22,330 nt of DNA from a virus. How positions within the stretch are numbered: position 1 is the first letter of the stretch; the number at the start of each line of letters is the position of its first letter. The translations under genes and the position numbers were made by a program. Below, piece after piece: positions 1-15,205 of the stretch. The stretch is taken from the IMG/VR virus record IMGVR_UViG_3300034082_000698, positions 1 through 22,330 of that record, one strand, 5' to 3'. Below the pieces are notes generated by a model. That model saw only the letters and a program-made list of their open reading frames with translations. It did no database searches and had not been told where the DNA came from.

Positions 1-185
1 TGAAATATTTTATTAACAAAGACGGTGTAATTTTTGAATTAGATGAAGAATTTGGTCCTAATGCATGGGTTCATTTTGAGCCGAATAACCCCGACTACTA
101 TAGATATTTAGACTGGGTAGAGCAAGGTAATGAGCCTGTAGACATTATTGATACGCCCAAAGAATTAAATGTGGAGACTGAATAA
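1..185 (+). CDS. Small YLxWVxxGN-family protein, 5' edge of window
   Basis: The window opens with TG, and the frame then reads KYFINKDG and on to a TAA at 183-185. If the missing base is A, the gene starts with ATG one base upstream of the window and encodes 61 residues. The protein is acidic. Its second half carries NPDYYRYLDWVEQGNEP, which matches the C-terminal motif of two other small proteins here (3254-3418 and 6131-6283). In those two copies the small gene directly follows a jelly-roll fibre gene, so such a gene may lie just upstream. The stop overlaps the next start (TAATG). Similar DYxxYLxWxxxGN endings occur in small phage tail-fibre-associated proteins, so a fibre assembly or attachment role is possible but unproven. 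Confidence 0.7.
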   Translation, partial: KYFINKDGVIFELDEEFGPNAWVHFEPNNPDYYRYLDWVEQGNEPVDIIDTPKELNVETE

Positions 186-868
186 TGGCTATTGACTTTC
201 CAGACTCCCCTACAGCAAACCAAACTTACACAGTTGGTGATAAAACATGGAAATATGTTCTACCTTCATTGTCGGTAGGTAGCACTGGTCCTGGTGGTGG
301 CATTGTATTCATTACTCCGTCTACCGCTGGTAACTCAACAGGTAAATACTTTGAAATAGCACCTTACGGTTGGAATACTGGCGCAGACCCAACAAGAACT
401 TGGGCGCAAAGCACCCCTGTCAATTACCAATCAACCGCCGTTACGGGGGCAGACGGAACTGCTATAGGTACTGGGTATCAAAACACTCTAGATATTATCG
501 CTCAAGGAAATAGTACAACCTCTACATCAGCAGCAGCGCTTGCTCAATCTTATGCTGGTGGCGGTCAGACCGATTGGTTCTTAGCGTCAAAAGATGAGTT
601 ATACCAAGTGTATGTTAATCGTGCGAGTATTGGAACTTTTACTTCAAATTATTACTGGAGTTCTTCTGAGAACAGTTCTATCTATGCATATTTTCAAGGA
701 ATTACCAATGGGGCAGTGCAATGGGACGCTAAGAACAATACATTCTATGTCCGCCCAGTCCGTTCTTTCACTACCGAAGGCGGAAGATGGGTTGTTGTGG
801 ACAAGGTAAACAACGCCTCTAATCAGATTTACGATGTTACTGTATTATTGCGTATGGAGACTAACTAA
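185..868 (+). CDS. Tail fibre/adhesin with DUF1566 (C-type-lectin-like) domain
   Basis: This is a 227-residue protein. Residues 4-25 (DFPDSPTANQTYTVGDKTW) resemble the short N-terminal motif of many phage fibre proteins. Residues 35-195 look like a DUF1566 domain: GGGIVFI near 37-43, GTGYQNT near 95-101, DWFLASKDELY at 130-140, YYWSSSE at 156-162, and VRPVRSF at 189-195. This fold is related to C-type lectins and is used in phage and bacterial surface-binding proteins, so the likely role is host-receptor binding at the tail tip. The ATG overlaps the upstream stop (TAATG), and its own stop overlaps the next start in the same way. DUF1566 proteins are sometimes targets of diversity-generating retroelements, but no reverse transcriptase or template repeat is visible in the window. 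Confidence 0.75.
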   Translation: MAIDFPDSPTANQTYTVGDKTWKYVLPSLSVGSTGPGGGIVFITPSTAGNSTGKYFEIAPYGWNTGADPTRTWAQSTPVNYQSTAVTGADGTAIGTGYQNTLDIIAQGNSTTSTSAAALAQSYAGGGQTDWFLASKDELYQVYVNRASIGTFTSNYYWSSSENSSIYAYFQGITNGAVQWDAKNNTFYVRPVRSFTTEGGRWVVVDKVNNASNQIYDVTVLLRMETN

Positions 869-1740
869 TGGCTCGTAGGCGTGTAGATACAGCACCACAA
901 TTTAACGTTGGCGCTGATTCAGTATTAATCCAGCAGGTAGTAGGGTCAACTTCTAACATCTTTGAGGTTAAGAACGCTGCTGGTGCGTCTGTAATGGCTA
1001 TTGATAGTTCTGGCGCAACCACGGCTACCTTTGCTGCTGGTGTAGGTCTACCCGTGGGTATGATTACCCCGTTTGCTGGTTCTACTGCACCTACAGGGTG
1101 GTTCTTGTGCGGAGGTCAAGCAGTATCCCGAACAACTTACGCTTCTCTTTTTGCAGTTGTTGGTACTACCTACGGTGCTGGTGATGGCTCAACTACCTTC
1201 AACTTACCTGACCTTAGAGGTCGTGCAGTAGCAGGTGTAGACAACATGGGAGGTACAGACGCTGGTCGTCTGGACATTGCCAATAGTTCTGGAACAGTTA
1301 TTGGGTCACAGTATGTAACTTTGACCTCTGCACAATCAGGAGTCCCTGCCCACTCCCATGCAAACACGGTTACAAACAATGCAGTTACTTCAGGTGCAGG
1401 TTCGGCTCACCAACATGCAAATACTGCCTCGTTTACAGGCAACGCAGCATCTCATGCCCACAGTTTTACTCCAAGATATGGTGGTAGCACTGCTGTAGGT
1501 GTAAACATGGATGTTAATGGTTTTGGTAGTCCTTATGGTCTAGGTGGTGGATATGTTGAGGCGACTACCATCACCCCTTCGGGTTCTGTCTCAGTGAGCA
1601 ATGTCAACGAATCAGCACATACTCACTCCGTTACAAGCAATGTCACTATTAGCAACGTAAACAATACTGCGGCTAATGCCGCTGAATCCCATAGCGTCAT
1701 GCAACCAACAATGGTTCTAAACTATATAGTGAGGTACTAA
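868..1740 (+). CDS. Phage tail collar domain fibre protein
   Basis: This is a 290-residue protein. Residues 62-122 form a recognisable phage tail collar domain (PF07484 type): VGMITPFAG, then TAPTGWFLCGGQAVSR, LFAVVGTTYGAGDGSTTFNLPDLRGR. Such domains cap short tail fibres and take part in receptor contact. The N-terminal 60 residues look like a short attachment segment. The region after the collar is Gly/Ser/Asn rich with repeated His-containing stretches (PAHSHANT, AHQHANT, SHAHSF, AHTHSV). In short-tail-fibre relatives, HxH motifs bind metal along the fibre axis. It ends in the typical MQPTMVLNYIVRY, close to the collar-family terminus QPxxxLNYIIk. It is joined to both neighbours by TAATG overlaps. 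Confidence 0.85.
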   Translation: MARRRVDTAPQFNVGADSVLIQQVVGSTSNIFEVKNAAGASVMAIDSSGATTATFAAGVGLPVGMITPFAGSTAPTGWFLCGGQAVSRTTYASLFAVVGTTYGAGDGSTTFNLPDLRGRAVAGVDNMGGTDAGRLDIANSSGTVIGSQYVTLTSAQSGVPAHSHANTVTNNAVTSGAGSAHQHANTASFTGNAASHAHSFTPRYGGSTAVGVNMDVNGFGSPYGLGGGYVEATTITPSGSVSVSNVNESAHTHSVTSNVTISNVNNTAANAAESHSVMQPTMVLNYIVRY

Positions 1741-3254
1741 TGCCATTTGTAGAGACACGCTTCATTTCCCCTACAACGCTGACAACATCAGCGGCTAGTG
1801 CGCTGTATACAGTTCCAACTGGGTATTCCGCAATTATTAAACAATTAGTCGTAACGAACATTACAGGAACTGCGGCTACCTTTACCTTCTACGTTAATAC
1901 TGCTTCTGCTAGTAATGCCCTATTTAGTGGTACGTCTGTAGCGGCTAACGACACAGTGATTATCAACTTGTCTCAGGTACTTACAACTGGCGAGACTCTT
2001 AGGGCGCTTGCTTCAACAGGTTCGGCGCTAAACCTGACAGTCTCTGGTGTCATCAATGATGGTCCTCTTGCATCTACGGCTACCTACATTGCTGACAATG
2101 CAATTACTAGCGCCAAGATTGCTGATGGAGCAATTGTTAATGCAGACATAAACGCTTCGGCTGCAATTGATAAAACTAAGATTTCTGGCACTGCTGTAAC
2201 TGTTGCCGATACTGGAACTGTTACCTCAACAATGATTCTTGACGGAACGATTACTACTGCCGATATTGCCGCTAATGCAGTTACTCAAGCCAAGTTAAGT
2301 ACAGATATTCCATTGAGTGGTTTCCGCAATGTTTTGATTAACGGTGGGTTTGATGTTTGGCAACGAGGCACATCATTTACAGGTATTGCAAACACAACTT
2401 CCTACACTGCTGATAGATGGTGTATTTTTAGGTCAGTAGTAGCAGGATATTCTTTAAGCCAACAAGCAATGGTTCCTTCGGAACTTTCGGGTTTTAACTA
2501 TTGCGCTCGCTATCAAAGAACTGCTGGAAATACGGACTTGGGAGTTTTGTATATGGGCAGAACTTTTGAAAGCATCACAGTTAAAGCATTAGCAGGAAAA
2601 ACAGTTACTTTGTCTTTTTATGTTCGCAAAGGTGCAAACTTTAGCGGTTCCACCCTGTCAACGGCGGTTGATTTTGGCACAGGAACAGATTTAGGGTTCA
2701 CAACTCAACCAACATCTCCGTCTTCAACAACCATATCTACTACTTTGACCGCTTCTTGGCAATATGTAACCAGCACTATCGCTGTGCCAACTACTGCTAC
2801 TGCTGCAAGAATATTGTTTTTTTACACACCGACTGGTACTGCTGGTGCTGCTGATTATTTTGAGATTACTGGTGTACAGTTAGAAGTTGGCTCACAACCA
2901 ACCCCGTTTGAACAACGACCTATCGGTACAGAACTAGGGTTGTGTCAGAGGTATTACTGGAGAAACGCAATATATGGCGCTGGGGCTATCGGTGGTGGAG
3001 GAACTGTTCCGATTGTTACTATTGCATTTAAGACCACAATGAGAGCATCGCCAACGATTACTTATGTTAGTGGTGGTACCACAATGAATGGTCAGGCTGA
3101 CTTGACTATAGGAAGTGCATATTCTGGATTACCAGTAAGAGATTTAAGTGCAGATGGTGCTGAGGTCTTATTTAGTCTAGCAAGTGGAACGTTTACTACT
3201 GGTCAACCAGTGACTGTCAAAGGCGCAATTATGCAAGCATCGGCGGAACTGTAA
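1740..3254 (+). CDS. Modular tail fibre: module A, AKI/ADI repeat stalk, jelly-roll-like domain B
   Basis: This is a 504-residue protein with three visible parts. Residues 1-107 are module A, a beta-rich unit (ETRFISPTTL, IIKQLVVTN, LSQVLTTGETL) that recurs in the proteins at 4308 and 4796. Residues 115-190 carry repeats such as AITSAKIADGAI and TADIAANAVTQAKL, which look like a trimerising stalk. Residues 195-395 are domain B, bounded by FRNVLINGGFDVWQRGT and by QLEVGSQPTPFEQRP plus LCQRYY. This resembles the carbohydrate-binding-like fibre domain of many phages. About 100 further residues may be the tip. Domain B recurs in the separate gene at 5137. The gene is TAATG-coupled at both ends. 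Host-surface binding is inferred from domain style and context. Confidence 0.8.
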   Translation: MPFVETRFISPTTLTTSAASALYTVPTGYSAIIKQLVVTNITGTAATFTFYVNTASASNALFSGTSVAANDTVIINLSQVLTTGETLRALASTGSALNLTVSGVINDGPLASTATYIADNAITSAKIADGAIVNADINASAAIDKTKISGTAVTVADTGTVTSTMILDGTITTADIAANAVTQAKLSTDIPLSGFRNVLINGGFDVWQRGTSFTGIANTTSYTADRWCIFRSVVAGYSLSQQAMVPSELSGFNYCARYQRTAGNTDLGVLYMGRTFESITVKALAGKTVTLSFYVRKGANFSGSTLSTAVDFGTGTDLGFTTQPTSPSSTTISTTLTASWQYVTSTIAVPTTATAARILFFYTPTGTAGAADYFEITGVQLEVGSQPTPFEQRPIGTELGLCQRYYWRNAIYGAGAIGGGGTVPIVTIAFKTTMRASPTITYVSGGTTMNGQADLTIGSAYSGLPVRDLSADGAEVLFSLASGTFTTGQPVTVKGAIMQASAEL

Positions 3255-3418
3255 TGTATAGGAAATGCAAAAACTTATTTGATGATGGTGAAGCGCCTAT
3301 CATTTTAAGACTAGAGGATATGGCTGCTATTCCTTTTGATGAAAGAAATGTAGACTACCAAGAGTATCTTGCGTGGGTTGCTGAAGGTAACACCGCTGAA
3401 GAATGGAGTCCAGAATGA
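3254..3418 (+). CDS. Small YLxWVxxGN-family protein, second member
   Basis: This is a 54-residue acidic protein (starts MYRKCKNLFDDGE, ends EEWSPE). Residues 32-51 (NVDYQEYLAWVAEGNTAEEW) nearly match those of the protein at 6131-6283 and resemble the partial protein at the window start. Its ATG overlaps the stop of the fibre gene (TAATG), and its TGA overlaps the next start (ATGA), so translational coupling is likely. The coding sequence from 3359 to 3407 is almost identical to 6224-6272, including 33 perfectly matching bases. The N-terminal half differs between family members, and only the second half is shared. This would suit a protein that recognises different partners through its N-terminus. 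Function is unknown; fibre assembly or attachment is an inference. Confidence 0.75.
   Translation: MYRKCKNLFDDGEAPIILRLEDMAAIPFDERNVDYQEYLAWVAEGNTAEEWSPE
3359..3407 (+). repeat. Direct repeat, partner of 6224-6272
   Basis: This 49-base stretch matches 6224-6272 at 47 positions by eye, with a perfect 33-base core at 3364-3396 (6229-6261). It encodes the YLAWVAEGNTAEEW motif of the two small proteins. The match is tighter than in the surrounding sequence, so it reflects recent duplication or recombination between the copies. Confidence 0.85.
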
Positions 3419-4308
3419 CTGGTATTCGTAGAGTCTCTCAATTAGGTACTACTGGAGAATCAACTTATGTTGATGGGTCTATTCAGGCTGTAGATATTGC
3501 TGCCAATGCTGTTACTAGAGCAAAACTTGCAACAAACTTGATGTTCAATATTGACTTGCTTGTTATCGCAGGTGGAGGACCAGGAGGATGGGATGTAGGC
3601 GGTGGAGGAGGTGCTGGCGGTTTCATATTCATGAGAGGATATCAAATATGGTTGCCATCCTTCACTTCAGTATCAGTGGTTGTTGGTGCTGGAGGAGTTG
3701 CTGCAGCAGCGAACCACCCAACCGTAGGAACAGATGGTGGTAACAGTAGTTTTGGAAATATAGTTGCCTTTGGTGGAGGATATGGTGCCAGTTATTCTGG
3801 TGGTTCTCCAAACGCAGGTGGTTCAGGAGGAGGCGGTGGAGGTTATACCGCTCCTACAGATGGAGCATTGGGGGTTGTAGGTCAAGGCTTTGCTGGGGGT
3901 ACTCCGTCTGTTGGTGGTAACGTTGCTCTCACTGGCAGTGGAGGCGGAGGAGCAGGAGGTCCTGGAGTCAATGGAATACTAAACTCTGGTGGTGCTGTCA
4001 ATGGTGGAAATGGGGCTATTTCAAATATCTCAGGCTCAAATGTAATTTACTGCAAAGGTGGAAGAGGCGGAAGTGACTCATGGGCTGGCGGTGCTGCTGG
4101 CGCTGCAAACACTGGCAATGGTGGAGATGGCGCTGGAGCGTCAAATGGTAACAGCGGTTATAACGGTGGTTCAGGTATTGTAATCGTTAGATATCTCACT
4201 TCTGATGCATCTGATTTTACAATTACTGGAGGAACTGCAACTACGAGTGGTTCTTATACGGTTAGAACATTCAGTACCGTTGGTTCAGCAACATTTGGGA
4301 TTTCATAA
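3415..4308 (+). CDS. Glycine-rich tail adhesin
   Basis: I chose ATG 3415 because it gives an ATGA overlap with the upstream stop, in keeping with the tight joints nearby. An in-frame ATG at 3403 would add four residues. The protein has 297 residues. Residues 1-40 include a short stalk motif (SIQAVDIAANAVTRAKLATN) shared with the fibre at 1740. From about residue 45 to 245 it is dominated by Gly clusters (LLVIAGGGPGG, GGGGGAGG, GGSGGGGGG, GGGGAGG, GGSGIVIVRY). This is the style of glycine-rich receptor-binding tips, such as adhesins that pack polyglycine helices, and of the LVVAGGGGGG domain common in aquatic phages. A C-terminal ~45-residue stretch (SDASDFTITGG to the end) closes it. The role as a receptor-binding tip is inferred. 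Confidence 0.75.
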   Translation: MTGIRRVSQLGTTGESTYVDGSIQAVDIAANAVTRAKLATNLMFNIDLLVIAGGGPGGWDVGGGGGAGGFIFMRGYQIWLPSFTSVSVVVGAGGVAAAANHPTVGTDGGNSSFGNIVAFGGGYGASYSGGSPNAGGSGGGGGGYTAPTDGALGVVGQGFAGGTPSVGGNVALTGSGGGGAGGPGVNGILNSGGAVNGGNGAISNISGSNVIYCKGGRGGSDSWAGGAAGAANTGNGGDGAGASNGNSGYNGGSGIVIVRYLTSDASDFTITGGTATTSGSYTVRTFSTVGSATFGIS

Positions 4309-4796
4309 TGGCTTTTACAGAAAAACGACTATCAGGACCATCTGCGCTAACGGCTAACACAGAGACAACCCTGTACACGTGCCCAACCGCCCAAACAACC
4401 ACAACCATGCTTAAACAGTTTGTAGTAACCAATACAAGCGCTTCTGCAACTGCCACTATCAGTATCTCTTTGGTACCTGTTACACAAACTGCTGGCACAG
4501 CCAACCGTTTATTTAATGCTTTGTCGTTAGCGGCTAATGAGACAGTATTACTGGATGTATCACAGGTAATGACTTCGGGTGATTTTATCTCAGCCAGGTC
4601 TAGCGCTAGTTCTACTATTAACGTAACCATTTCAGGGGTAGAGAACGCTGGCGGTATGGTAGTTTCAGGGTTAGCGGATTCCGCTGTAACTACTGCTAAA
4701 ATTGCAGATAGTAATATAACCGCCGCAAAACTAGGACCTAACGCCTTTTTGTCTAATAACCAAGCAGGTGCAATAATGTTAATGGAGATGATGTAA
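4308..4796 (+). CDS. Module-A fibre protein with short stalk
   Basis: This is a 162-residue protein. Residues 1-115 are a second copy of module A: EKRLSGPSALTANTETTLYTC, LKQFVVTNTSASATATI, LSLAANETVLLDVSQVMTSGDFI and NVTISGVENAGG match the order of motifs at the N-terminus of the fibre at 1740. Residues 120-150 (VTTAKIADSNITAAKLGPNAF) are a short version of the AKI/AKL stalk. It then stops after NNQAGAIMLMEMM, with no domain B. It could be a subunit that assembles with a neighbouring tip protein, or a truncated paralogue. Both ends are TAATG overlaps. No enzymatic motif is seen. Confidence 0.7.
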   Translation: MAFTEKRLSGPSALTANTETTLYTCPTAQTTTTMLKQFVVTNTSASATATISISLVPVTQTAGTANRLFNALSLAANETVLLDVSQVMTSGDFISARSSASSTINVTISGVENAGGMVVSGLADSAVTTAKIADSNITAAKLGPNAFLSNNQAGAIMLMEMM

Positions 4797-5137
4797 TGGC
4801 TGTCGGTGACCGTAACGAAACTAGGTTCTTTGGACCTTCTACTTTAGGTGCTTCTAGCGCTGGGCTTGGCACTACTGCTGTACCATCTGGGCAGACATGG
4901 ATTATTAAGCAAATGACTATTTGCAATACTTCAGGTATAGATAGGCTTGTATACATGGGCGTAGGCACTACAGAAACTACTGCTAACCGTTTCTTTTCGG
5001 CGCTTCCTATTGCTGGTTTTGACACCATTATATGGGATACAGGCCTAGTATTGACCGCTGGTGAACGTCTATGGGGCTATAGTGACAGCGCCAGCGCCGT
5101 ATCTGTAATGGCAATGGGCTGGGTTAAGGAAGTCTAA
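4796..5137 (+). CDS. Stand-alone module-A fibre protein
   Basis: This 113-residue protein is essentially module A alone: RNETRFFGPSTLGA, WIIKQMTICNTSG, ANRFFSALPIAGFDTIIWDTGLVLTAGERLW, and a final short beta stretch. The motif order matches residues 1-107 of the fibre at 1740. The next gene (5137) starts inside its stop codon and encodes domain B, so the two genes together correspond to the fused fibre at 1740 without its stalk. Module A always sits at an N-terminus or alone, so it may attach fibres to the tail or cap a trimer (inference). Confidence 0.7.
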   Translation: MAVGDRNETRFFGPSTLGASSAGLGTTAVPSGQTWIIKQMTICNTSGIDRLVYMGVGTTETTANRFFSALPIAGFDTIIWDTGLVLTAGERLWGYSDSASAVSVMAMGWVKEV

Positions 5138-6123
5138 TGCCTATTTCTTCTGTCCTTGGTTCATCGGCGTTGTTGCCTGCTGGCTTGGGTTTTCGCAATG
5201 TTCTGATTAACGGTGGTATGGATGTTTGGCAACGAGGCACTGGCTCTATTGCTCCAGCGAATGGTGTCATAACAAACACAGACAGATGGGTTCACACAGG
5301 AAACACAACCACTTTCACACAACAAACAGATGTTCCTGCTGGGTTTAGATATTCACTTGGGGTGAGCGGTAGTGACCCAAGTTTTGCTCAAAAAATTGAA
5401 GCAGCAAACTCTGCTCGTCTTGCTAGCCAAACGGTAACTTTTTCTATTTGGGCTAAAAGTATTTCTGGTTCAACATCGTTGTTTGTTAACTTTTACTATC
5501 CATCAGCAGTTGACAATTTTGCTTCGTTAACCACTATCAGTAGTACGACTATCGCCACTACTGTTTCTTCATCGTGGGCAAGATACACATTAACCGTCAA
5601 TCTTCCCGCAAATGTCATTAATGGCTTAATGGTTCTTGTTGGTCGCTCTTCTGGCTCTTCAAATACTTACTTTACGGGTGTGCAGTTGGAACAGAACTAC
5701 CAGCCAACCCCATTTGAACAACGACCCATCGGTACGGAACTACAACTATGCCAACGTTATTACGAAAAGTCGTATCTTAACGAAGTAGCAGTTGGAACAA
5801 ATACCACTTTTGGTTTAGCCGTAATTACTGGGTCTACGGATGCTAACGGTTATATTTACGCTTCAATCCCAATGAAGGTTTCTAAAAGAATTTCTGCACC
5901 ACAATCACAAAGCAGCAATAACTCTGTTTTTAAATTGTACACAAACACTGGTACTGCCGACCAAGTATTTTATTATAGAAATGGGGCAAATGGTGTTGCT
6001 ACCACAACTTGCGGAACCAACAATGTTGGGCAAGACAACATTTCTATTTATGTATACACTGGTGCTGCTGCTTGGGTTCCTGCTTATATAGTTTTTCACT
6101 GGGTTTACAATGCAGAATTGTAG
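5137..6123 (+). CDS. Jelly-roll-like tail fibre protein (domain B)
   Basis: This is a 328-residue protein. After a short leader, residues 20-38 (FRNVLINGGMDVWQRGT) open domain B. The pattern then follows the domain-B plan of the 1740 fibre: TDRWVHTGN, LASQTVTFSIWAKS, SSSWARYTLTVNLP, YFTGVQLEQNYQPTPFEQR and ELQLCQRYY. This domain is widespread in phage fibre tips and looks like a carbohydrate-binding beta-sandwich. The last ~115 residues differ from the 1740 protein and may carry receptor specificity. Edge sequences are conserved at nucleotide level with the 1740 gene while the interior is not, as expected for adhesins under selection. The start is TAATG-coupled to the module-A gene. The stop is followed by a 7-nt gap containing AGGAA ahead of the next gene. 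Confidence 0.8.
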   Translation: MPISSVLGSSALLPAGLGFRNVLINGGMDVWQRGTGSIAPANGVITNTDRWVHTGNTTTFTQQTDVPAGFRYSLGVSGSDPSFAQKIEAANSARLASQTVTFSIWAKSISGSTSLFVNFYYPSAVDNFASLTTISSTTIATTVSSSWARYTLTVNLPANVINGLMVLVGRSSGSSNTYFTGVQLEQNYQPTPFEQRPIGTELQLCQRYYEKSYLNEVAVGTNTTFGLAVITGSTDANGYIYASIPMKVSKRISAPQSQSSNNSVFKLYTNTGTADQVFYYRNGANGVATTTCGTNNVGQDNISIYVYTGAAAWVPAYIVFHWVYNAEL

Positions 6124-6130
6124 GAAATAA

Positions 6131-6283
6131 ATGTTTTATTTTATTCAAGATACAGAAGATATGAAATTGCTCGTGCTGGAAAATGGTGTTCCTTTTCCAC
6201 CAAATGATGCCAACACGGATTATCAAGCGTATCTTGCGTGGGTTGCTGAAGGTAACACCGCAGAAGAATGGACAGGTAACTAA
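6131..6283 (+). CDS. Small YLxWVxxGN-family protein, third member
   Basis: This is a 50-residue protein (starts MFYFIQDTEDMK, ends EEWTGN). Residues 29-47 (NTDYQAYLAWVAEGNTAEEW) are nearly identical to the protein at 3254-3418. AGGAA at 6122-6126 gives a plausible ribosome binding site 4 nt before the ATG, the only such spaced joint in this part of the island. Its TAA overlaps the next ATG. As in copy 1, it follows a domain-B fibre gene and precedes an unrelated tip gene. The recurring position suggests a job tied to domain-B fibres, such as assembly or attachment. Function is not established. Confidence 0.75.
   Translation: MFYFIQDTEDMKLLVLENGVPFPPNDANTDYQAYLAWVAEGNTAEEWTGN
6224..6272 (+). 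repeat. Direct repeat, partner of 3359-3407
   Basis: This is the second copy of the 49-base near-identical stretch, with a perfect 33-base core at 6229-6261. See 3359-3407. Confidence 0.85.
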
Positions 6284-6855
6284 TGGGTATCACACAGCAA
6301 ATCGGTGCTAGTTCACTAATTAAACCAGGCGTGATAGACAACACGGCTGCACGACCTGCATCACCGTTTGAAGGTCAAGCGGTATATCAAAAAGATACTG
6401 ACCAAGTTTTGGTTTATAACGGAACTGCATGGGTTGAAACAGCATCTATGTTGACCAAAGCCCCACGAGGGATAATTTCATATACAACAAAATCTGCTGG
6501 GACAACAAACATCACAACAGCAACAACAACACTTCTTACTGCACCATCTTTTACTTTAACTTCTTCAAGGTATATTAAAATAACTGGTCGTGCAGATTAT
6601 CTTGATAACGCAAACAGTGTTACCGACATAATTCTTGCTTTGAATAATGGTTCAGGGAATGTTGCCTCCACTGCAATAGTTAGCAATGTATGGCCTGAGT
6701 TCACTTCATGCATTCCTGTTGTATTTATTGGTATTCTTGCTGCTGGTACATACACATACAGAATGGATATTTCGCTTGTTGCAGGGACAAACAGAGTAAA
6801 CCATAATGTTTCCAACTATGTAAATCTGCTTATTGAAGATATTGGAGCGGCGTAA
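6283..6855 (+). CDS. Tail fibre protein with EGQ/DTD N-terminal module
   Basis: This is a 190-residue protein. Residues 14-53 (KPGVIDNTAARPASPFEGQ, then YQKDTDQVLVYNGTAWVE) form an N-terminal module shared with the protein at 6890. It is a common element in phage fibre proteins, where a short beta-hairpin ends in NGTxW. Residues 60-190 are a beta-rich domain of unrecognised family (SRYIKITGRADYLD, AAGTYTYRMDISLV, NLLIEDIGAA) that looks like a small C1q/TNF-like or jelly-roll tip, though I cannot confirm the fold. It is TAATG-coupled at both ends. A tail-associated receptor-binding role is inferred from context. Confidence 0.7.
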   Translation: MGITQQIGASSLIKPGVIDNTAARPASPFEGQAVYQKDTDQVLVYNGTAWVETASMLTKAPRGIISYTTKSAGTTNITTATTTLLTAPSFTLTSSRYIKITGRADYLDNANSVTDIILALNNGSGNVASTAIVSNVWPEFTSCIPVVFIGILAAGTYTYRMDISLVAGTNRVNHNVSNYVNLLIEDIGAA

Positions 6856-6890
6856 TGGCTATTAGTAATAATTCAACTGGGGGTAAGTAA
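6855..6890 (+). pseudogene. 11-codon micro-ORF, possible remnant of a fibre N-terminus
   Basis: ATG at 6855 overlaps the preceding stop (TAATG), and the TAA at 6888-6890 overlaps the next ATG. The frame encodes MAISNNSTGGK. The next protein begins MSVSNLSTGMR: six of eleven residues are identical in the same positions. The likeliest reading is a collapsed copy of the 6890 gene, kept in phase so coupling still runs through it. Alternatively it is a real short peptide or only a translational bridge. Confidence 0.45.
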
Positions 6891-7480
6891 TGTCAGTATC
6901 TAATCTTTCTACGGGTATGCGCCCTGGCGTATGTACGAGCACCACTAGGCCCACGGTTCCTTACGAAGGTCAAATGATTTATGAGACTGATACGGACATG
7001 GTTGCTATCTGGAATGGCACCGCATGGCGTTACATCTCTGCGACTACACCAACTAACGGAACAGTTTTACAGGTTGCCCATGGCTCTACATCTATTGAGT
7101 CATCGGTTTCAACGGCTGGCATTTGGCAGTCCACCAATGTGTTGGCATCTATTTCTCCAAAAAGCACCTCAAGCAAAGTTTTAATTCAAGCAAGTTTGCA
7201 ATATAGAGTTGAGCAAGCAGCAGACTCTGGAGTTGGTTTAATGCTTAGGAGAAGTGGAAATGCCGTATATACTGATAGTAATTTCTACGGAATGGGCTAT
7301 TCATCAAATGCTTCAGGAAGTTCAACTAGAGCATTTTTTCAATTTTTAGATAATCCAGCATCCACATCATCTACTTTGTATGAAATATTTGCACAAAGAA
7401 GAGGGAGTGGCGCTGCTGTATCTTTTCAAGACGATAGTCTCTATGCCTCTACAATCACCCTAATGGAGATTGCAGGGTAG
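6890..7480 (+). CDS. Tail fibre protein with EGQ/DTD N-terminal module, second member
   Basis: This is a 196-residue protein. Residues 11-48 (RPGVCTSTTRPTVPYEGQ, then YETDTDMVAIWNGTAWRY) match the N-terminal module of the protein at 6283. Residues 55-196 form a beta-rich domain with SSKVLIQASLQYRVEQ, LMLRRSGNAVYTDSNFYG, FFQFLDNPASTSSTLYEIFAQRRGSG and ITLMEIAG. This resembles the C-terminal tip found in many aquatic phage fibres (a pattern of SxVLIxxxLxY and LxLxR followed by xLxEIxG). It is the last gene of the overlapping chain: a 37-nt gap with a good ribosome binding site follows. Receptor binding is inferred. Confidence 0.72.
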   Translation: MSVSNLSTGMRPGVCTSTTRPTVPYEGQMIYETDTDMVAIWNGTAWRYISATTPTNGTVLQVAHGSTSIESSVSTAGIWQSTNVLASISPKSTSSKVLIQASLQYRVEQAADSGVGLMLRRSGNAVYTDSNFYGMGYSSNASGSSTRAFFQFLDNPASTSSTLYEIFAQRRGSGAAVSFQDDSLYASTITLMEIAG

Positions 7481-7517
7481 CACCTGCTACACTCTCAACA
7501 TACCAAAGGAGCCTTAA

Positions 7518-7658: not shown

Positions 7659-9542
7659 ATGCACAGCCCACACCCTATCTATAGAGCACTAGTTACTTAC
7701 TCCAGTTCAACAACTGGAGAGATTCGTGTGAAGATTCCCGCATTGCTGGGCGCTGATTCTGAAGTACCAATCTCTTATATTGGGCGCAAAGTACCTTGGG
7801 TAGTTCCTACTGTAGGTGACCAAATAGTAGTAACGTCAGATGACACTAATCTGACTAACCTATTTTGGGTACAGACTGATGGCAATACAAGTCCTTTAGG
7901 TGGTGTTACTTCTAATATTGCTGGCACGGGTATTTCTGTAACAGGGGGTACTGGTGCAGTGACAATAACTAACACAGGAGTGACTTCGTTTACTTCTTCG
8001 TCTGGGTTAAGTACCAACACGAGTGCGACTGGTGCCATTTCTGTTACCAACACTGGAGTAACTTCTATTGCTGTGGGTGGTTCAGGTTTGTCAAGGTCAG
8101 GTGCTACTGGTGCTATTACTTTGACTAACACAGGAGTGACTTCGTTTACTTCTTCGTCTGGCTTGAGCACAAACACCTCTGCTACTGGTGCAGTGAGTAT
8201 TACCAACACTGGAGTGACATCTAATGTTGCAGGAACGGGAATCTCTATATCTGGTGGTACGGGAGCCGTAACAATTACCAATACTGGCGTTACTTCAGTC
8301 GTAGCAGGTACTGGCGTTTCTGTTTCAAGCGGTACTGGTGCAGTTACTATAAGTATTGGACAATCTGTTGCTACAAGCGCATCTCCTACCTTTGCGTCTA
8401 TTACTGCTACTGGAACAGTAACTGCAAGTGGTAATGGTGGTGCAATACTTGGTGCGTGGACAGCAGATGCTACTTGGGCAAGCGTAAGAGGCAGGAATGG
8501 TTATGTACTTGTAGGTAACACGGGTAGTGATTATAATGTTTATGTCCGTACTTATCATAACTCCAGTGTTCACATTGGGGGAAACGGCAACAACACCCTG
8601 TCTGTTGACTCATCGTCAGCCTCGGTAACTGGAGGCATGGGTGTATCTGGTGCCTTGAATGCGTATTCAATTCAAGGTAACGCCAACGTTGCTGGTACAG
8701 GTAACGCCTCACACCATCCGTCAGGTATTTACTCCACAGGCAGTAACTGGCTTTATGGAACAATGTTTTTAAATGCTAATAATATCGGTACTTCAGGCTC
8801 ACAAGACCACGGCGCTAATCAAATTTACGCAAAAGATTGGTTTCGTTCATGGGGTAACACTGGTTGGTATAACCAAACCCATGGTGGTGGTATGTACATG
8901 ATTGACTCCACATGGGTTCGTACTTATGGCAGTAAAAACTTCTACGTTGACGCTGAAATTCGTGCTAATGGTTCTTTCTCGTCTAATCAAAGCAGACAGC
9001 GTGGCTCATACGGTTCAATAACTGTTGGTTCTAATGGTCGTTCAGGAGACTGGGGCGGTATTGAATTTGTTTCGCCCGAAGGTCAAACCCTCATGGTGAA
9101 ACAATACAACTACTCAGGTATGTACACGGACAACAGTACTTGGAACTGGTTATGGAACTTCAGCACCTTAGAAGTTGGTTCAGACGAAAGATTCAAGCGA
9201 GAAATAGAGCCATTGAGTGTTGGCTTAAACTTTATTGAATCGCTAGAACCTATTTCGTATTTGCGTTTAACAGAAAGAACTGATGACGACCCTGAGGCAA
9301 CACAAGAGGGTTACTACTACGGGTTTACTGCGCAGAATGTACGGTCAGCATTAGACGCTGTTGGCGAAACAAGAGATGTACGAATACACGACATTGGTGG
9401 TCCTGACATGGGCCTGGTTGCTTGCACAGAAGATGCAGTATATGACCGTCAATACATTGGTATTACTGAGTTCATTGCGCCAATGGTGCAGGCTATTAAA
9501 GAACTTAGCGATAAGGTAAAAGCCCTAGAAAAAGTACAATAA
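7659..9542 (+). CDS. Tail spike/fibre with C-terminal S74 intramolecular chaperone
   Basis: This is a 627-residue protein. Residues 8-73 (GEIRVKIPALLG, WVVPTVGDQIVVTSDD, LFWVQTD) look like a small OB-like attachment domain. Residues 82-234 hold six tandem 25-26-residue repeats each starting GVTS. Residues 235-500 are a beta-rich shaft and tip. From S508 to the end is a peptidase S74 domain (chaperone of endosialidase, PF13884): SDERFKREIEPL, FIESLEPISYLRL, YGFTAQNV, and a final helix (MVQAIKELSDKVKALEKV). S508 and K513 fit the Ser-Lys dyad that cuts the chaperone off after the fibre trimer folds. No glycanase motif is recognised in the shaft. The gene directly abuts the small gene upstream. 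Confidence 0.88.
   Translation: MHSPHPIYRALVTYSSSTTGEIRVKIPALLGADSEVPISYIGRKVPWVVPTVGDQIVVTSDDTNLTNLFWVQTDGNTSPLGGVTSNIAGTGISVTGGTGAVTITNTGVTSFTSSSGLSTNTSATGAISVTNTGVTSIAVGGSGLSRSGATGAITLTNTGVTSFTSSSGLSTNTSATGAVSITNTGVTSNVAGTGISISGGTGAVTITNTGVTSVVAGTGVSVSSGTGAVTISIGQSVATSASPTFASITATGTVTASGNGGAILGAWTADATWASVRGRNGYVLVGNTGSDYNVYVRTYHNSSVHIGGNGNNTLSVDSSSASVTGGMGVSGALNAYSIQGNANVAGTGNASHHPSGIYSTGSNWLYGTMFLNANNIGTSGSQDHGANQIYAKDWFRSWGNTGWYNQTHGGGMYMIDSTWVRTYGSKNFYVDAEIRANGSFSSNQSRQRGSYGSITVGSNGRSGDWGGIEFVSPEGQTLMVKQYNYSGMYTDNSTWNWLWNFSTLEVGSDERFKREIEPLSVGLNFIESLEPISYLRLTERTDDDPEATQEGYYYGFTAQNVRSALDAVGETRDVRIHDIGGPDMGLVACTEDAVYDRQYIGITEFIAPMVQAIKELSDKVKALEKVQ
7902..8360 (+). repeat. Six tandem ~26-residue beta-repeats in the spike
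   Basis: There are six in-frame units of 25-26 codons, each starting GVTS and mostly ending TGAxxxTNT (residues 82-234). Units 2 and 4 are almost identical (FTSSSGLSTNTSATGA), and units 1 and 5 are close (AGTGIS, GGTGAVTITNT). The ABCBA-like order suggests duplication of multi-unit blocks. It probably forms a trimeric beta-shaft whose length can vary by unit gain or loss. Confidence 0.85.
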
Positions 9543-9561
9543 TAGAAAAGTCTAAATGTTG

Positions 9562-9573
9562 TAAACTATAACC
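9562..9573 (+). promoter_or_regulatory. Possible leaderless promoter (-10) for the lysin gene
   Basis: TAAACT at 9562-9567 fits the actinobacterial TANNNT -10 pattern and ends exactly 6 nt before the ATG at 9574. No Shine-Dalgarno sequence lies in between and no clear -35 is seen. The same geometry recurs at 10104. Confidence 0.35.
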
Positions 9574-10101
9574 ATGACAAGAAAATACTCTTATTACCCC
9601 AGTTTTGACGGAAAAAAGGCACAGCCTGGGACTGAAAAACTCGCTGCGCTTTGTGCGGCTAGGTGGAAAACCAAGAACCTGGGGATTTATTCTCCAAGAT
9701 TGATGCGAAATTCTAAGACCGAGGGTAAGAAAATTGGTGACCCTGGTATGGAAAAGTATTTAAGTGTTCATGCTACTGGAGCCGCTGTAGACATCGGTTA
9801 TGACGACCGCAAGGTTGGCGTTGCCATGTGGGACTGGTTTATTAAATATACTTTGGAACTTGGTATTGAAGAAATCCATGACTATGCCTTTGACAAAGAC
9901 CCTAAAGATAAAACACCTGGCTATGGAAGAGGCTTCAGGTGCTCAAGAGGAGAAAATTCTCAAGGCATAAAATTATTTACCGTTGACGATAATGCTGGTT
10001 CATTCGGGGGCAAGTGGTTGCATTTAGAATTATCTCCTGCAATGGCAAAAGATGCTGCAAAATTTGAAGCAGCGTGGCGGGCACTCCCTAAGCCTGAGTA
10101 A
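9574..10101 (+). CDS. M15-like zinc peptidase, probable endolysin
   Basis: This is a 175-residue protein. SVHATGAAVDIGY (residues 64-76) matches the SxHxxGxAxD metal-binding motif of M15 peptidases (VanY, phage L-alanyl-D-glutamate endopeptidases), giving ligands H66 and D73. WLHLEL (148-153) supplies the second motif, with H150 as the third ligand. Such enzymes cut peptide cross-bridges of peptidoglycan. No signal peptide or separate cell-wall-binding domain is visible, so release would need a holin; two holin-like proteins lie at 14932 and 17097. The position after the fibre island and before the packaging genes suits a lysis role. The exact bond cut cannot be told from sequence. Confidence 0.75.
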   Translation: MTRKYSYYPSFDGKKAQPGTEKLAALCAARWKTKNLGIYSPRLMRNSKTEGKKIGDPGMEKYLSVHATGAAVDIGYDDRKVGVAMWDWFIKYTLELGIEEIHDYAFDKDPKDKTPGYGRGFRCSRGENSQGIKLFTVDDNAGSFGGKWLHLELSPAMAKDAAKFEAAWRALPKPE

Positions 10102-10103
10102 GG

Positions 10104-10115
10104 TAAAATAGCCTT
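10104..10115 (+). promoter_or_regulatory. Possible leaderless promoter (-10) for the KTSC-like gene
   Basis: TAAAAT at 10104-10109 is a near-consensus -10 hexamer ending exactly 6 nt before the ATG at 10116, with no Shine-Dalgarno sequence between. It has the same spacing as the site at 9562. No good -35 is visible. Confidence 0.4.
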
Positions 10116-10637
10116 ATGGCAGACAACTTCAGCGGGTACTACGCCGCTCAACGAGAAGAGAATAAGCGTCAACGTGAAGTTGGTGAACTTATTAAACAAC
10201 GCCGTTTGCGTGAAGCCCGTGGCGAAGAACTATCTGAAGAAGAACAGCAAGCATACCAAGAGCAGTTTGAATCTCGTACTTTTGGTGCTTACCAAGTAAC
10301 CCCACTTCCTAATAAGCCTGAAAACTACGGGCGTGGTCCAACTAAAAGTACTCGTGTTATTGCTCATAAGTTTGTACCAGGTTCTAGAAGTTCTGACCAA
10401 GCCTTAGGTCGTGAAGTTATCAACTCTGGTACTGTCTATGTAAAGTTTGCAAGACCTTCTAAACAACAGGGTGGCGATGCAACCTATAAGTATACTAATG
10501 TACCTGTTGCTACCTACGATTCTTTTCGTGGTTCTAACTCAAAGGGTCGTTTTATCAACAGCCCGTTAAACACAAACAACCCACAAAGGGTTACTCCTGG
10601 TAGTGAAGAATATGAAAGATTTTGTTCTGATTTGTAA
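10116..10637 (+). CDS. KTSC-domain-like protein
   Basis: This is a 173-residue protein. Residues 8-53 are highly charged and helical (QREENKRQREVGELIKQRR, then ARGEELSEEEQQ). Residues 105-152 resemble a KTSC domain: GTVYVKFAR, YKYTNVPVATYDSF, SNSKGRFIN. KTSC domains are small, found alone or attached to phage and bacterial proteins such as Lys-tRNA synthetase-like ones, and their function is uncertain. The gene lies 14 nt after the lysin gene, behind a -10-like hexamer. The lack of a ribosome binding site fits a leaderless message. The role is unknown; the domain call is moderate. Confidence 0.55.
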   Translation: MADNFSGYYAAQREENKRQREVGELIKQRRLREARGEELSEEEQQAYQEQFESRTFGAYQVTPLPNKPENYGRGPTKSTRVIAHKFVPGSRSSDQALGREVINSGTVYVKFARPSKQQGGDATYKYTNVPVATYDSFRGSNSKGRFINSPLNTNNPQRVTPGSEEYERFCSDL

Positions 10638-10642
10638 ATAAT

Positions 10643-11059
10643 ATGAAAAAGTTAATTGGTTATGGCTCACTGAGCCTTTTTGTTGCATCATTCCTACTAT
10701 CACCCGTAGCATTCATTCTTTGGGGTTCTCAAGGTATTTGGCTTTGTGTCATTACCGCTAATACATTTGGGCGCATTGTCTTAAAAGACACACTCAATAC
10801 CCTGCAAGTTGTTGGTCCTGTTTATTGGATTACTCGTGATTATGTCCCTAAAGGCACACGCTTTGCAAGTATTGGCTTTATGAAGCAGATTGATGAACCA
10901 TGGCGTGTAGGTACAGGTCTTCATTTAAACTTGTGGAAGCGTACTTTCCAAATTGGTATCTGCCATAAGCAGCATTACACAAACTCTATGGATGGTGAAC
11001 TGTCCGTTGTTGGTGGTAGGTTGATGGACACAGCACCTACGGAAATCGGAGCATGGTAA
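10643..11059 (+). CDS. Membrane protein of unknown function
   Basis: This is a 138-residue protein. Residues 5-28 (IGYGSLSLFVASFLLSPVAF) and about 32-47 (WLCVITANTFGRIVL) are hydrophobic, so it probably has two membrane segments, or a signal anchor and one more. The remaining ~90 residues are mixed (VPKGTRFASIGFMKQIDEPWRVG, LNLWKRTFQIGICHKQH) and could lie in the cytoplasm or periplasm. No family is recognised. The start lies 5 nt after the preceding stop, with no ribosome binding site. The position near the lysin allows a lysis-related role, but nothing in the sequence proves it. Confidence 0.6.
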   Translation: MKKLIGYGSLSLFVASFLLSPVAFILWGSQGIWLCVITANTFGRIVLKDTLNTLQVVGPVYWITRDYVPKGTRFASIGFMKQIDEPWRVGTGLHLNLWKRTFQIGICHKQHYTNSMDGELSVVGGRLMDTAPTEIGAW

Positions 11060-11280
11060 TGATTTGGAAGCGCAGTGCCCCTACTAAAGAACTTCACCCC
11101 CGCATTAAGAAGTTAGACACCCCATCACTTCTGTCATGGATGGATACCACATTGATGAGCGTAGGTATGGCTTATGATGGCTGGCGTTACAAGGACAAGT
11201 CTCCTGAGCAGGTAAACGAAGCACTTGATGTTTTGAATGACCTTTGGGAAGAAATTTCTAATAGAAGCATTGACAAATAG
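11059..11280 (+). CDS. Small conserved-looking protein, unknown
   Basis: I chose ATG 11059 because it overlaps the upstream stop (TAATG) and GGAG at 11048-11051 sits 7 nt before it. An in-frame ATG at 11053 would be only 1 nt from that site. The protein has 73 residues: a basic start (MIWKRSAPTKELHPRIKK) followed by helices (LLSWMDTTLMSVGMAYDGWR, QVNEALDVLNDLWEEI). The layout recalls small helical proteins in actinophage genomes, but I cannot assign a function. Its last codons hold a TTGACA -35-like element. Confidence 0.6.
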   Translation: MIWKRSAPTKELHPRIKKLDTPSLLSWMDTTLMSVGMAYDGWRYKDKSPEQVNEALDVLNDLWEEISNRSIDK

Positions 11281-11300
11281 GTCTACCTAAATGCTAATAT
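11270..11300 (+). promoter_or_regulatory. Promoter-like site upstream of the terminase
   Basis: There is a perfect TTGACA at 11270-11275, a 19-nt spacer, and TAATAT at 11295-11300 preceded by TG (extended -10 TGCTAATAT, 11292-11300). The spacer is slightly long. TGCTAACAT at 15144-15152 is nearly the same extended -10. A transcript would start near 11307 and include the hairpin at 11346-11382. Confidence 0.5.
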
Positions 11301-11345
11301 GACAAGAACGAAGATTTCGGTGTTCCCTTTCCACCGAGTCTTCTA

Positions 11346-11382
11346 GGGGGTCCCACTTTCTTCCCTCCTGTGTGGGACCCCC
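11346..11382 (+). terminator. Perfect 11-bp hairpin before terL (terminator or attenuator)
   Basis: GGGGGTCCCAC (11346-11356) and GTGGGACCCCC (11372-11382) are exact reverse complements around a 15-nt loop. No U-tract follows, so it is not a classical intrinsic terminator, although actinobacterial terminators often lack one. It ends 17 nt before the chosen terL ATG and lies downstream of a promoter-like site. It could therefore end upstream transcription, act as an attenuator, or control translation. Confidence 0.7.
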
Positions 11383-11399
11383 GACTTCGCCCTTCGTGT

Positions 11400-12965
11400 A
11401 TGCTTGATTACGTGACAGTACTTGACGAATCAGAAATTGAAGAATACGAACAGGCGGAAGACCTTGATGAAACCTCTGCCGAGTTTCTTGACAACCTAGT
11501 TAAAAGGTTGGTCATCTTTACAGAAGAGTTCTGTGACGTTGAGTTGTTCCCATATCAGGTGCCCATTGCTTACCGCTTGATTGAATCCATCGTCATTGGA
11601 GATGGTGAAGAAATAACAGTTATTGCAACCCGCCAGTCAGGTAAATCAGAAGTACTTTCTAATGTCTGTGCGTCCCTTATGGTCATCCTTCCTAAGTTGG
11701 CTAAGGTGTACCCAACATGGCTTTCTAAGTTTGAAAAGGGTTTTTGGGTTGGGGTATTTGCGCCAACTGAAGACCAAGCCGATACCGTCTTTGGTCGTAT
11801 CGTTTCAAAACTGACAAGTGACCATGCCCTACAGTTCTTGCTTGACCCTGAGATTGACGACAAAGCCGCTTCTGGTGGTTCCCGTGGTAAGGGCAAACTC
11901 ATCAGTCTAAAGAACGCTGGTTCTATTTGCCGTATGCAGACCTGTAACCCTAAAGCAAAGATTGAGTCTAAAACCTACCACTTCGTTCTTATTGACGAGG
12001 CTCAAGAAGCCGATGAGACAATGATTGCTAAATCAATCAAGCCCATGCTGGCGTTCAACAACGGTTCTATCTGTCTTACTGGTACCGCTACCCGCTACAA
12101 GTCTTACTTCTATAAAATGATTCAATATAACAAGCGTAGGTCTGTAGGCGGTAAATCAAAGCGCCAGCAACACTTTGAGTATGACTGGAAGGTAGCGGCT
12201 AAGTACAACAAGAACTACCTGAACTTCATTTCTAAAGAAAAACTCCGTATTGGGGAAGACTCAGACGAATTCCAAATGTCTTACATGAATCGTTGGATTC
12301 TTGAAAAAGGTATGTTTGTCACTGAAGAGCGCCTAGACCGTATGTATGATGCCTCCATGAACGTTGTAAAGCAATGGTGGCGTACGCCCGTTGTGGCTGG
12401 CATTGACGTAGCCCGTTCAAATGACTCCACGGTTGTGACAGTCGTATGGGTTGACTGGGACCATCCAGACCCATTTGGGTTCTATGAACACCGTGTACTC
12501 AACTGGCTTGAGATTAACAACGAAGAATGGGAATCTCAGTATTTCCAGATTATTGACTTCCTGCGTAATTACGACTGTATGCGTATTGGCGTGGACTCCC
12601 AAGGTGTCGGTGGTGCTGTAGCGGAACGCTTGCAACTTCTTCTTCCTGATATTGAAGTTCTGGCAGTTACCTCAGATGCCAAGAATCAGAACGAACGGTG
12701 GGTGCACCTAACAGAACTCATTCAGCGTGACCAACTTGTAATTCCTGGACATTCTAAAGCCCGCAGAATACGAAACTGGAAACGGTTTAACCAGCAAATG
12801 TCTGACCTTGAAAAGATTTATCGGGGACCTTATTTGCTTGCGGCTGCCCCTGACGAAAAGGGTGCGTTTGACGACTACCCCGATAGTTTGGCTATTGCTT
12901 GTCAAATGAGCACGCAGGATACTATGCCGACCATTTTGGTGGCAGATAATCCTTTTTTCCGCTGA
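11400..12965 (+). CDS. terL: Terminase large subunit
   Basis: This is the DNA-packaging motor and headful or cos nuclease. I chose ATG 11400 (521 residues). An in-frame GTG at 11370 would begin inside the hairpin loop, and neither start has a clear ribosome binding site. The ATPase half shows Walker A ATRQSGKS (residues 76-83), Walker B VLIDEA (196-201) and a coupling-type LTGTATR (227-233). The nuclease half has an RNase H-like acidic set: D336 in AGIDVARSNDST, D399 in IGVDSQG, and D491, D492 and D495 in FDDYPDS. Length and motif order fit the family. A small terminase is not adjacent; the HTH protein at 15206 is the best candidate. Confidence 0.92.
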   Translation: MLDYVTVLDESEIEEYEQAEDLDETSAEFLDNLVKRLVIFTEEFCDVELFPYQVPIAYRLIESIVIGDGEEITVIATRQSGKSEVLSNVCASLMVILPKLAKVYPTWLSKFEKGFWVGVFAPTEDQADTVFGRIVSKLTSDHALQFLLDPEIDDKAASGGSRGKGKLISLKNAGSICRMQTCNPKAKIESKTYHFVLIDEAQEADETMIAKSIKPMLAFNNGSICLTGTATRYKSYFYKMIQYNKRRSVGGKSKRQQHFEYDWKVAAKYNKNYLNFISKEKLRIGEDSDEFQMSYMNRWILEKGMFVTEERLDRMYDASMNVVKQWWRTPVVAGIDVARSNDSTVVTVVWVDWDHPDPFGFYEHRVLNWLEINNEEWESQYFQIIDFLRNYDCMRIGVDSQGVGGAVAERLQLLLPDIEVLAVTSDAKNQNERWVHLTELIQRDQLVIPGHSKARRIRNWKRFNQQMSDLEKIYRGPYLLAAAPDEKGAFDDYPDSLAIACQMSTQDTMPTILVADNPFFR

Positions 12966-13015
12966 AATATGATACCCTTATATACAAGTAACCCCAGTCC
13001 CTTTTGGAGGATTTT

Positions 13016-13417
13016 GTGAACGTAGCACCCGCCCCGATGTTCCCTGAGAAGTCGCCCACCATGTTTGAGCGTGGCTTTGCGCCATCAATCCCTATGAACA
13101 AAGGTCCTCTTCGTTTTGAAGAGGGTGTCGCAACTGACACCGATGTTCCTAATGATTTCGCACAAGGCGCATACATGGACACCGCTCCATCGCCATTGCG
13201 TATGAACCATAACAACCCAGAGATGTTCTACAAGCACCCAGAGCAGACAATGCGTGAGCGTGCTCACGTAGGTGCCGCTTCATGGATTGAAGCCCCTGCG
13301 GTCCTCTCAGAGTTCGTACAGGGCGCTGTAGCAGGCGATGGCATGCCATCCTTTGAGTATGAGTACAACACGGGTGGACACATGAACCGTCCAAACCCAA
13401 CTGTAGTTTACGACTAA
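13016..13417 (+). CDS. Hypothetical protein after terL
   Basis: I chose GTG 13016 because GGAGG at 13006-13010 is 5 nt upstream. A TTG at 13004 would put the ribosome binding site inside the gene. The protein has 133 residues and is rich in Pro, Met and Asn: APAPMFPEKSPTMFERGFAP, then NHNNPEMFYKHPEQ, and a Gly/Asn-rich end (EYEYNTGGHMNRPNP). There are no membrane segments or Cys. I recognise no family. The location between terL and the head genes and the strong ribosome binding site suggest a well-translated, possibly virion-associated protein (inference). Confidence 0.65.
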   Translation: MNVAPAPMFPEKSPTMFERGFAPSIPMNKGPLRFEEGVATDTDVPNDFAQGAYMDTAPSPLRMNHNNPEMFYKHPEQTMRERAHVGAASWIEAPAVLSEFVQGAVAGDGMPSFEYEYNTGGHMNRPNPTVVYD

Positions 13418-13420
13418 ATA

Positions 13421-14928: not shown

Positions 14929-14931
14929 CTA

Positions 14932-15141: not shown

Positions 15142-15143
15142 TC

Positions 15144-15152
15144 TGCTAACAT
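15144..15152 (+). promoter_or_regulatory. Extended -10-like site upstream of the HTH gene
   Basis: TGCTAACAT is an extended -10-like motif (TG-n-TANNNT). It differs by one base from TGCTAATAT at 11292-11300 before terL. A transcript would start near 15159, just before the palindrome at 15165-15186. No convincing -35 is seen at normal spacing. Confidence 0.35.
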
Positions 15153-15164
15153 AATCCTGACCAC

Positions 15165-15186: not shown

Positions 15187-15205
15187 CGGAATAAGGTTAG
15201 GAAAT

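Follow-up and report, generated by a model that had tools for sequence, protein, structure and literature searches.

Two similar fibre blocks in the tail region of an uncultured phage probably reflect two-cassette tips exchanged between fixed anchors rather than a block duplication

The window, by which we mean the whole 22,330-base IMG/VR virus record analyzed here, is a tail-region fragment of an uncultured virus that carries module A, domain B and a small YLxWVAEGN gene twice in an identical order, at 1740-3418 and at 4796-6283. This raises the question of how two such similar blocks came to stand in one genome. A sequence-only reading had taken them for copies of one A-B-small block, produced by segmental duplication within a growing array of adhesins. 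Our data lead us to another answer, which we hold with good confidence: the locus is a host-recognition island in which fixed anchors carry two-cassette B tips that are exchanged via three seams, and the resemblance of the two blocks does not stem from block duplication. The features on which the following considerations rely are:

3..185, +: s0, the 3' part of a small gene with the motif YLDWVEQGN, truncated at the window start (alignment z 7-8)
185..868, +: anchor of the Lcl type, bearing an Lcl_C (DUF1566) tip (PF07603, E 6.6e-9)
868..1740, +: collar-domain fibre (PF07484, E 1.1e-25)
1740..2066, +: module A1, a position-locked anchor with a predicted jelly-roll
2067..2318, +: linker with IAxNAVTxAK-type repeats, disordered in the model
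2319..2957, +: cassette 1 of B1, predicted CBM4-like sandwich plus CQRYY helix
2319..2371 (copy 1) and 5188-5240 (copy 2), +: 5' seam (GFRNVLINGG..WQRGT)
2866..2957 (copy 1) and 5672-5763 (copy 2), +: middle seam (TGVQLE..TPFEQRPIGTEL..CQRYY)
2958..3254, +: C-terminal variable tip of B1, ending in ASAEL, part of cassette 2
3254..3418, +: s1 (54 aa), which overlaps the stop of B1 and belongs to cassette 2
3353..3407 (copy 1) and 6218-6272 (copy 2), +: 3' seam (YLAWVAEGNTAEEW)
3415..4308, +: RRVS anchor with a glycine-rich tip (PF21722, E 1.9e-20)
4308..4796, +: module A2 plus a short linker, without B
4796..5137, +: module A3, a gene of its own
5137..5187, +: ALLPAG lead of the position-2 B gene
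5188..5763, +: cassette 1 of B2, predicted CBM-like domain
5764..6123, +: C-terminal variable tip of B2, ending in NAEL, part of cassette 2
6131..6283, +: s2 (50 aa), which belongs to cassette 2
6283..6855, +: fibre on an EGQ anchor, with tip 2
6890..7480, +: fibre on an EGQ anchor, with tip 3
7659..9542, +: S74 (intramolecular chaperone) fibre, island edge (PF13884, E 2e-9)

Genes for the S74 fibre, a peptidase-like protein, the terminase, the portal and the major capsid protein follow 3' of the A-B array. The terminase shares 45% identity with its counterpart in Streptomyces phage BRock, so that the virus is probably an actinophage-like tailed phage. The name of the peptidase-like protein is our guess, and this protein matched no family in Pfam or PHROG. 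At the DNA level, no match to the tail region was found among cultured phages.

The relatedness of the two blocks is evident from Smith-Waterman alignments scored against shuffled sequences (z of 21 for A1/A3, 36 for B1/B2 and 21 for s1/s2). As the sequence-only reading had recognized, high nucleotide identity is confined to the block edges, where the repeat pairs 2319/5188 (53 nt, 91%), 2866/5672 (92 nt, 75%) and 3353/6218 (55 nt, 93%) are located; the first marks the start of B, the second the end of its folded part, and the third the end of s. The proposed spacing of about 2.87 kb holds for the 5' and the 3' edges (2,869 and 2,865) but not for the middle edge (2,806), and due to this unequal spacing the blocks are not colinear DNA copies. 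Likewise, the block architecture is shared in its order but not in its gene layout: A, linker and B form one fused ORF in block 1 (1740-3254), whereas A (4796-5137) and B (5137-6123) are separate ORFs in block 2. Moreover, module A, a domain of about 110 aa, is present not twice but three times, at 1740, 4308 and 4796, the copy at 4308-4796 having been overlooked. The genes that follow the blocks do differ from one another, and the third small gene, at the start of the window, is real. In G001, one of the relatives used for comparison (all of them metagenome contigs whose records may be fragments), a 1,232-aa fibre ending in B and an s gene stand directly before the Lcl and collar genes. Hence, s0 most likely closes a third B+s unit, and the arrangement suggests that this unit lies upstream of the window. 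The counterpart of the Lcl-type gene (185..868) in the relatives comprises just 54-59 aa.

Among the three copies of module A, 48 of 107 aligned residues are identical between A1 and A2 and 37 of 103 between A1 and A3. In HMM maps over about 300 related loci, the places of A1, A2 and A3 are constant across phages while the tips vary, each copy clusters with its counterparts from other phages, and the tree of A requires two changes of position label, which is also the minimum. Judged by these alignments and trees, the A copies are old paralogs specific to their positions, and an ancient duplication of module A itself is likely. No match to module A was found in cultured phages at E 1e-3. Since a fold search with the whole A1-B1 chain was dominated by domain B, we modeled A alone and obtained a confident jelly-roll-like model (pLDDT 91). 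Its best matches among solved structures are nucleoplasmin-like jelly-rolls (Z 9-10) and its best viral matches, which comprise about 110 aa, carry either no name or the label 'virion structural'; neither group gives a function for A. A conserved anchor with a variable distal part is also a hallmark of T-even-type adhesin swapping.

Domain B has a different history. Its tree requires 12 changes of position label where four would be the minimum, the two B copies of the window stand far apart in it, and their union into one clade is rejected (p-AU 1e-44). B1 is the sister of the domain in L025, where it sits on the position-2 ALLPAG lead, and its cassette 1 shares 85.8% DNA identity with L076, again at another position; the B1-type CBM thus occupies position 2 in both relatives. 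B2 is the sister of the domain in L005, with 84% DNA identity over 5000-5767. B relatives also occur in cyanophages, in Methylophilales phages and in HMO-2011, where they are annotated mostly as tail fibres. A scan with the B domain of L100 retrieved six loci only, four of them from the same phage.

In an AlphaFold2 model of the 1740-3254 product, A forms a beta domain (pLDDT about 90), the linker is disordered, B forms a beta-sandwich (mostly 75-94, and 85-94 across most of the CBM4-like part) with a short helix at CQRYY, and the C-terminus is weakly modeled. The predicted sandwich (residues 195-384) has the same fold as CBM4-2 (2y6j; Z 16.7, rmsd 2.6 over 161 residues) and as the C-terminal sandwiches of phage tail spikes (5w6h, 7xyc and 8iqe; Z 15.4, 14.3 and 14.7), the phage spikes and fibres with domains matched at Z 14-15 being CBA120 TSP4, K2-2 TSP and Kp7 gp52. 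Sequence identity between these sandwiches and domain B is 10-16%, and sugar binding is predicted here from the fold. Neither B protein matched a CBM family in Pfam up to E 1, and we therefore claim the fold and not membership in family CBM4. Domain B is modeled as a CBM4-like sugar-binding sandwich followed by a variable C-terminal tip. As GFRN begins at residue 194, cassette 1 corresponds to the structural domain plus the helix.

The borders of this domain recur as borders of shared DNA. In four pairs of B genes from different positions, the shared DNA (77-95% identity) starts at GFRN, three times exactly and once 60 nt earlier in the linker, and it ends at CQRYY or no more than about 20 nt away. 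Among 53 alignments of shared CBMs from distinct copies, 47 end no more than 30 nt from RYY, six stop short of it, and none runs beyond; two further B pairs are alike from the CBM through the C-terminus without a break. Given that all copies conserve the seam, the ends of the shared-CBM alignments locate the crossovers in or near it without fixing them to a single base. Conversely, the nine alignments of shared C-termini begin 4-107 nt before the FE motif, reach no less than 127 nt beyond the stop codon of B, and thereby enter s or cross it. Conserved motifs thus hold the junctions of exchange, as they do in T-even-type adhesin swapping.

We assessed linkage in 88 non-clonal B genes with a small gene behind them, counting CBMs as alike when at least 60% identical and setting aside 156 B matches without the strict middle-seam pattern. 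None of the 68 pairs with like CBMs shares its C-terminus, whereas among the 17 pairs whose C-termini are alike, 15 have the s N-terminus in common as well. These 17 pairs fall into six families, so that the effective number is small; the CBMs are unlike in all six of them and s is alike in five, the sixth being L321/L305. The window itself offers an example: it shares with L077 the C-terminus (87% aa identity), s1 and the next anchor, but the CBM differs. In these sequence comparisons, the CBM is inherited independently of the C-terminus, with which s travels. What moves is consequently not the A-B-small block that had been proposed, but either the CBM portion of B by itself or its C-terminus jointly with s.

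The small gene s deserves separate consideration. Where enough upstream sequence is available, it stands directly behind B in 73 of 76 cases; about half of the B genes (71 of 150) lack an s recognized by our model, and 136 of 143 scored B genes end in EL. No Pfam family matched s1, the only matches of s1 and s2 are to PHROG families without an assigned function, and none of the papers listed in a literature search prints the YLAWVAEGN motif. The position of s behind a fibre tip and its inheritance with this tip are typical of tail-fibre chaperones, but by sequence (Pfam, PHROG) it belongs to no known chaperone family. The junction between the C-terminus and s is as close in DNA as that between the CBM and the C-terminus, but it is rarely broken, which points to functional coupling and hence to s as a putative dedicated partner of the C-terminal tip, possibly its chaperone or cap. 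For tail genes of about 50 aa, this provides a lead: their likely partner is the C-terminal part of the fibre and not the sugar-binding domain.

Comparison with close relatives reveals how variable the region is. L150 is 97.4% identical in DNA over 9561-13963 and L203 91.4% over 9583-20086, but both mostly lack a DNA match to window positions 1-7500; their packaging genes are about 91-97% identical to those of the window and their tail regions mostly unlike. The peptidase proteins of L151 and L153 are 97 and 95% identical to that of the window, and in the same interval a tryptophan halogenase (PF04820 in L151) and a glycosyltransferase replace the A-B array. The region is hence replaced beside near-identical flanking genes, in the manner of host-recognition islands. 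Tips change on the same anchors as well, being of the B+s, glycine-rich, collar or S74 type in the relatives: the RRVS anchor bears a glycine-rich tip in the window, B+s in L077, L009 and L222, and an S74 fibre in L227, in which position 2 carries a collar domain without s. One array recurs in L100, L102, L103 and L104. An array with a content varying between phages, as part of the earlier claim had it, is thus borne out; growth as its direction of change is not, since the relatives show replacement, gain and loss of tips alike.

Compared at identical amino acids, codon choice in the window pair is random outside the 5' and the 3' seam. The same codon is used at 12 of 16 positions in the 5' seam (6.3 expected, p 0.004) and at 12 of 15 in the 3' seam (6.5 expected, p 0.004); the excess in the middle seam is not significant (p 0.085). 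Synonymous sites are saturated in A1/A2/A3, in the interior and the C-terminus of B, and in the N-terminus of s. Family-wide, the ratio of observed to expected same-codon use amounts to 1.36-1.61 in the first three blocks of the middle seam, 1.28-1.38 in the 3' seam and 1.14-1.21 in the 5' seam, which is for this reason the weakest case. Elsewhere it is mostly 0.8-1.2, with single interior blocks reaching 1.35. Seams within one genome are not significantly more alike than seams between genomes; positions of a single genome may, but need not, exchange with each other.

These findings lend themselves to a coherent model for the locus. Exchangeable tips are carried by anchors that stand in a row and keep their positions (Lcl-type, collar, A1, RRVS, A2/A3 with ALLPAG, and EGQ). 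Cassette 1 would be the CBM4-like domain from GFRN to CQRYY (about 580-730 nt) and cassette 2 the variable C-terminus with its cognate s gene of about 50 aa; at the 5', middle and 3' seams flanking them, homologous exchange would take place from one position to another and from phage to phage. Each of the blocks that resemble one another in the window would then be an anchor that received its tip independently, out of a common pool. The simplest account would be that mixed infections allow homologous recombination at these short seams, presumably driven by a phage RecA-like recombinase. A RecA-family protein is encoded by eight of 10 relatives searched, the window itself being a fragment without RecA, and a RecT search found none. 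A phage-encoded protein for homologous recombination is likewise part of T-even-type swapping; T4 encodes its own RecA-family protein. The CBM would bind a glycan on the host surface, and swapping it would alter which strains the phage recognizes.

Several other explanations have to be weighed against this model. That an A-B-small block was copied about 2.87 kb downstream and then diverged inside B would account for the common order of A, B and s and for edges that lie 2.865-2.869 kb apart at 91-93% identity. A recent block copy would match at synonymous sites throughout, but these are saturated outside the seams, which refutes a recent event; neither sister copies nor likeness at synonymous sites throughout was found. 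With the B1+B2 clade rejected, A1 nearer to A2 than to A3, and each A grouping with its counterparts in other phages, we consider duplication very unlikely. Metagenome assemblers might also have joined unrelated phages at the seams: these repeats measure about 50-90 nt, the 3' seam of the window includes about 33 nt that match exactly, and all relatives do come from metagenomes. The seam copies differ by several bases, however, the same arrangements recur in contigs of different samples (L076/L025; L100, L102, L103 and L104), and a split at the middle seam in all 68 like-CBM pairs is too regular for random error, so that assembly chimeras seem scarcely credible as the cause.

Programmed variation of the tips by an invertible shufflon or a diversity-generating retroelement would fit conserved seams that adjoin variable tips, the Lcl_C (DUF1566) domain at 185-868, a type of domain that is a retroelement target, and a weak Shufflon_N match in the S74 fibre of L227. 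Set against this, neither a resolvase nor a tyrosine integrase was detected in 12 relatives and no reverse transcriptase (RVT_1) in 16, records that may be fragments; the combination of a recombinase with inverted silent copies was absent from these 12 possibly incomplete relatives, and minus-strand copies of A, B or s are missing from the arrays except for one A in L075. We regard this explanation as extremely improbable. The seams might, alternatively, be conserved because protein or RNA requires them, with recombination being illegitimate and only fusions at domain borders surviving. They are, after all, conserved protein motifs at the borders of a folded domain, and an RNA-level function could give synonymous constraint as well. 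Yet codon identity is raised at seams between unlike interiors (up to 1.61 in the middle and 1.38 in the 3' seam), as it should be when the DNA of the seams takes part in the exchange, and a RecA-like protein is present in relatives; in our judgment this reading is unlikely. Exchange of cassettes between fixed anchors consequently remains our preferred explanation. It can be extended, tentatively and probably too far, to the proposal that the seams are kept as recombination addresses and that CBM and C-terminus+s constitute a two-part combinatorial library, near linkage equilibrium, on which several anchors in each genome draw and which different families of aquatic phages have in common.

Replacement of host-recognition genes between aquatic phages with near-identical cores has been described as islands or modules (PMC3909814; PMC7468147; PMC10202952), and carbohydrate-binding and tail-fibre genes are typical of them (PMC3909814; PMC7468147; Nanopelagicales phages E7/F5, PMC10202952). 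While work on metaviromic islands described variable regions or whole-gene variants, the borders of exchange, the linkage of the parts and their movement between positions are resolved here. A hypervariable host-recognition island thereby receives explicit borders: a fixed part, a moving part and a co-moving small gene. As the cassette borders coincide with a predicted structural domain, host recognition in freshwater viromes might be read as combinations from two parts lists. What may be new is the split of the tip into CBM and C-terminus+s cassettes with three seams common to several anchors; we did not find it described in a short search of open papers, and given the extent of this search our claim is a modest one.

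Several known systems share individual traits with this island. In the Alteromonas phages V22 (gp26/gp27) and A5 (gp8/gp9), the gene behind the fibre tip encodes its cognate chaperone or cap (PMC10579305), and it is shared between phages together with the tip, as s is with the C-terminus; these chaperones comprise 195-240 aa, whereas s has about 50 aa and, with no match in Pfam, no detectable sequence relation to them. Ackermannviridae likewise place several receptor-binding proteins on fixed mounts and swap modules between positions (PMC8432352; PMC11414711), but theirs are depolymerase spikes in a branched complex and not small CBM-like tips. The contemporary exchange of tail-fibre domains by shuffling in phage receptor-binding proteins (PMC10684548) is the same general process; we found no description there of a specific scheme that combines three seams, two cassettes and a partner gene. 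Our findings extend what is known of T-even-type adhesin swapping, in which, as cited in PMC7468147, short conserved motifs likewise flank variable adhesin segments and exchange proceeds by homologous recombination. Compared with the account cited there, the island described here differs in its CBM4-like sandwich with a separate C-terminus, in one cassette type being common to several anchors per genome, and in a partner gene that moves with one of the two cassettes.

A short open reading frame in the adhesin array, the row of anchors carrying exchangeable tips, looks like the remnant of an anchor that was left behind after an exchange. It is a repeat of the sequence that opens the EGQ anchor, the position-fixed base of the fibres (MAISNNSTGLRPGVC in the related metagenome loci L076 and L005), and is listed here with the further features of the window.

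6855-6890, 11-codon ORF (MAISNNSTGGK, then stop), directly ahead of the real tip 3 gene
7775-8281, antisense ORF of 168 aa
7942-8355, TNTGVTS repeats, four to five copies of 78 nt each, inside the S74 (intramolecular-chaperone) fibre gene
13894-14928, GP88-family protein (PF17338, E 1.1e-15; phrog_1617)
16442-17047, proteasome-subunit (Ntn-hydrolase) match (E 1.5e-7), flanked by packaging genes
21424-22330, additional fibre-like gene downstream of the capsid gene, truncated at the record end

The antisense ORF mirrors the TNTGVTS repeats and is probably a mere by-product of them. Among the fibre-tip B genes of related loci, EL, mostly as AEL, directly precedes the stop codon in 136 of the 143 that were scored, and the 80-120 residues upstream of this terminal EL are highly variable.

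In the tail island of the near relatives L151 and L153, the place of the window's adhesin array is taken by genes that both loci have in common, situated at 4988-6484 and 8540-9625 in L151. They encode a tryptophan halogenase (PF04820, E 8e-100) and a glycosyltransferase of group 1.
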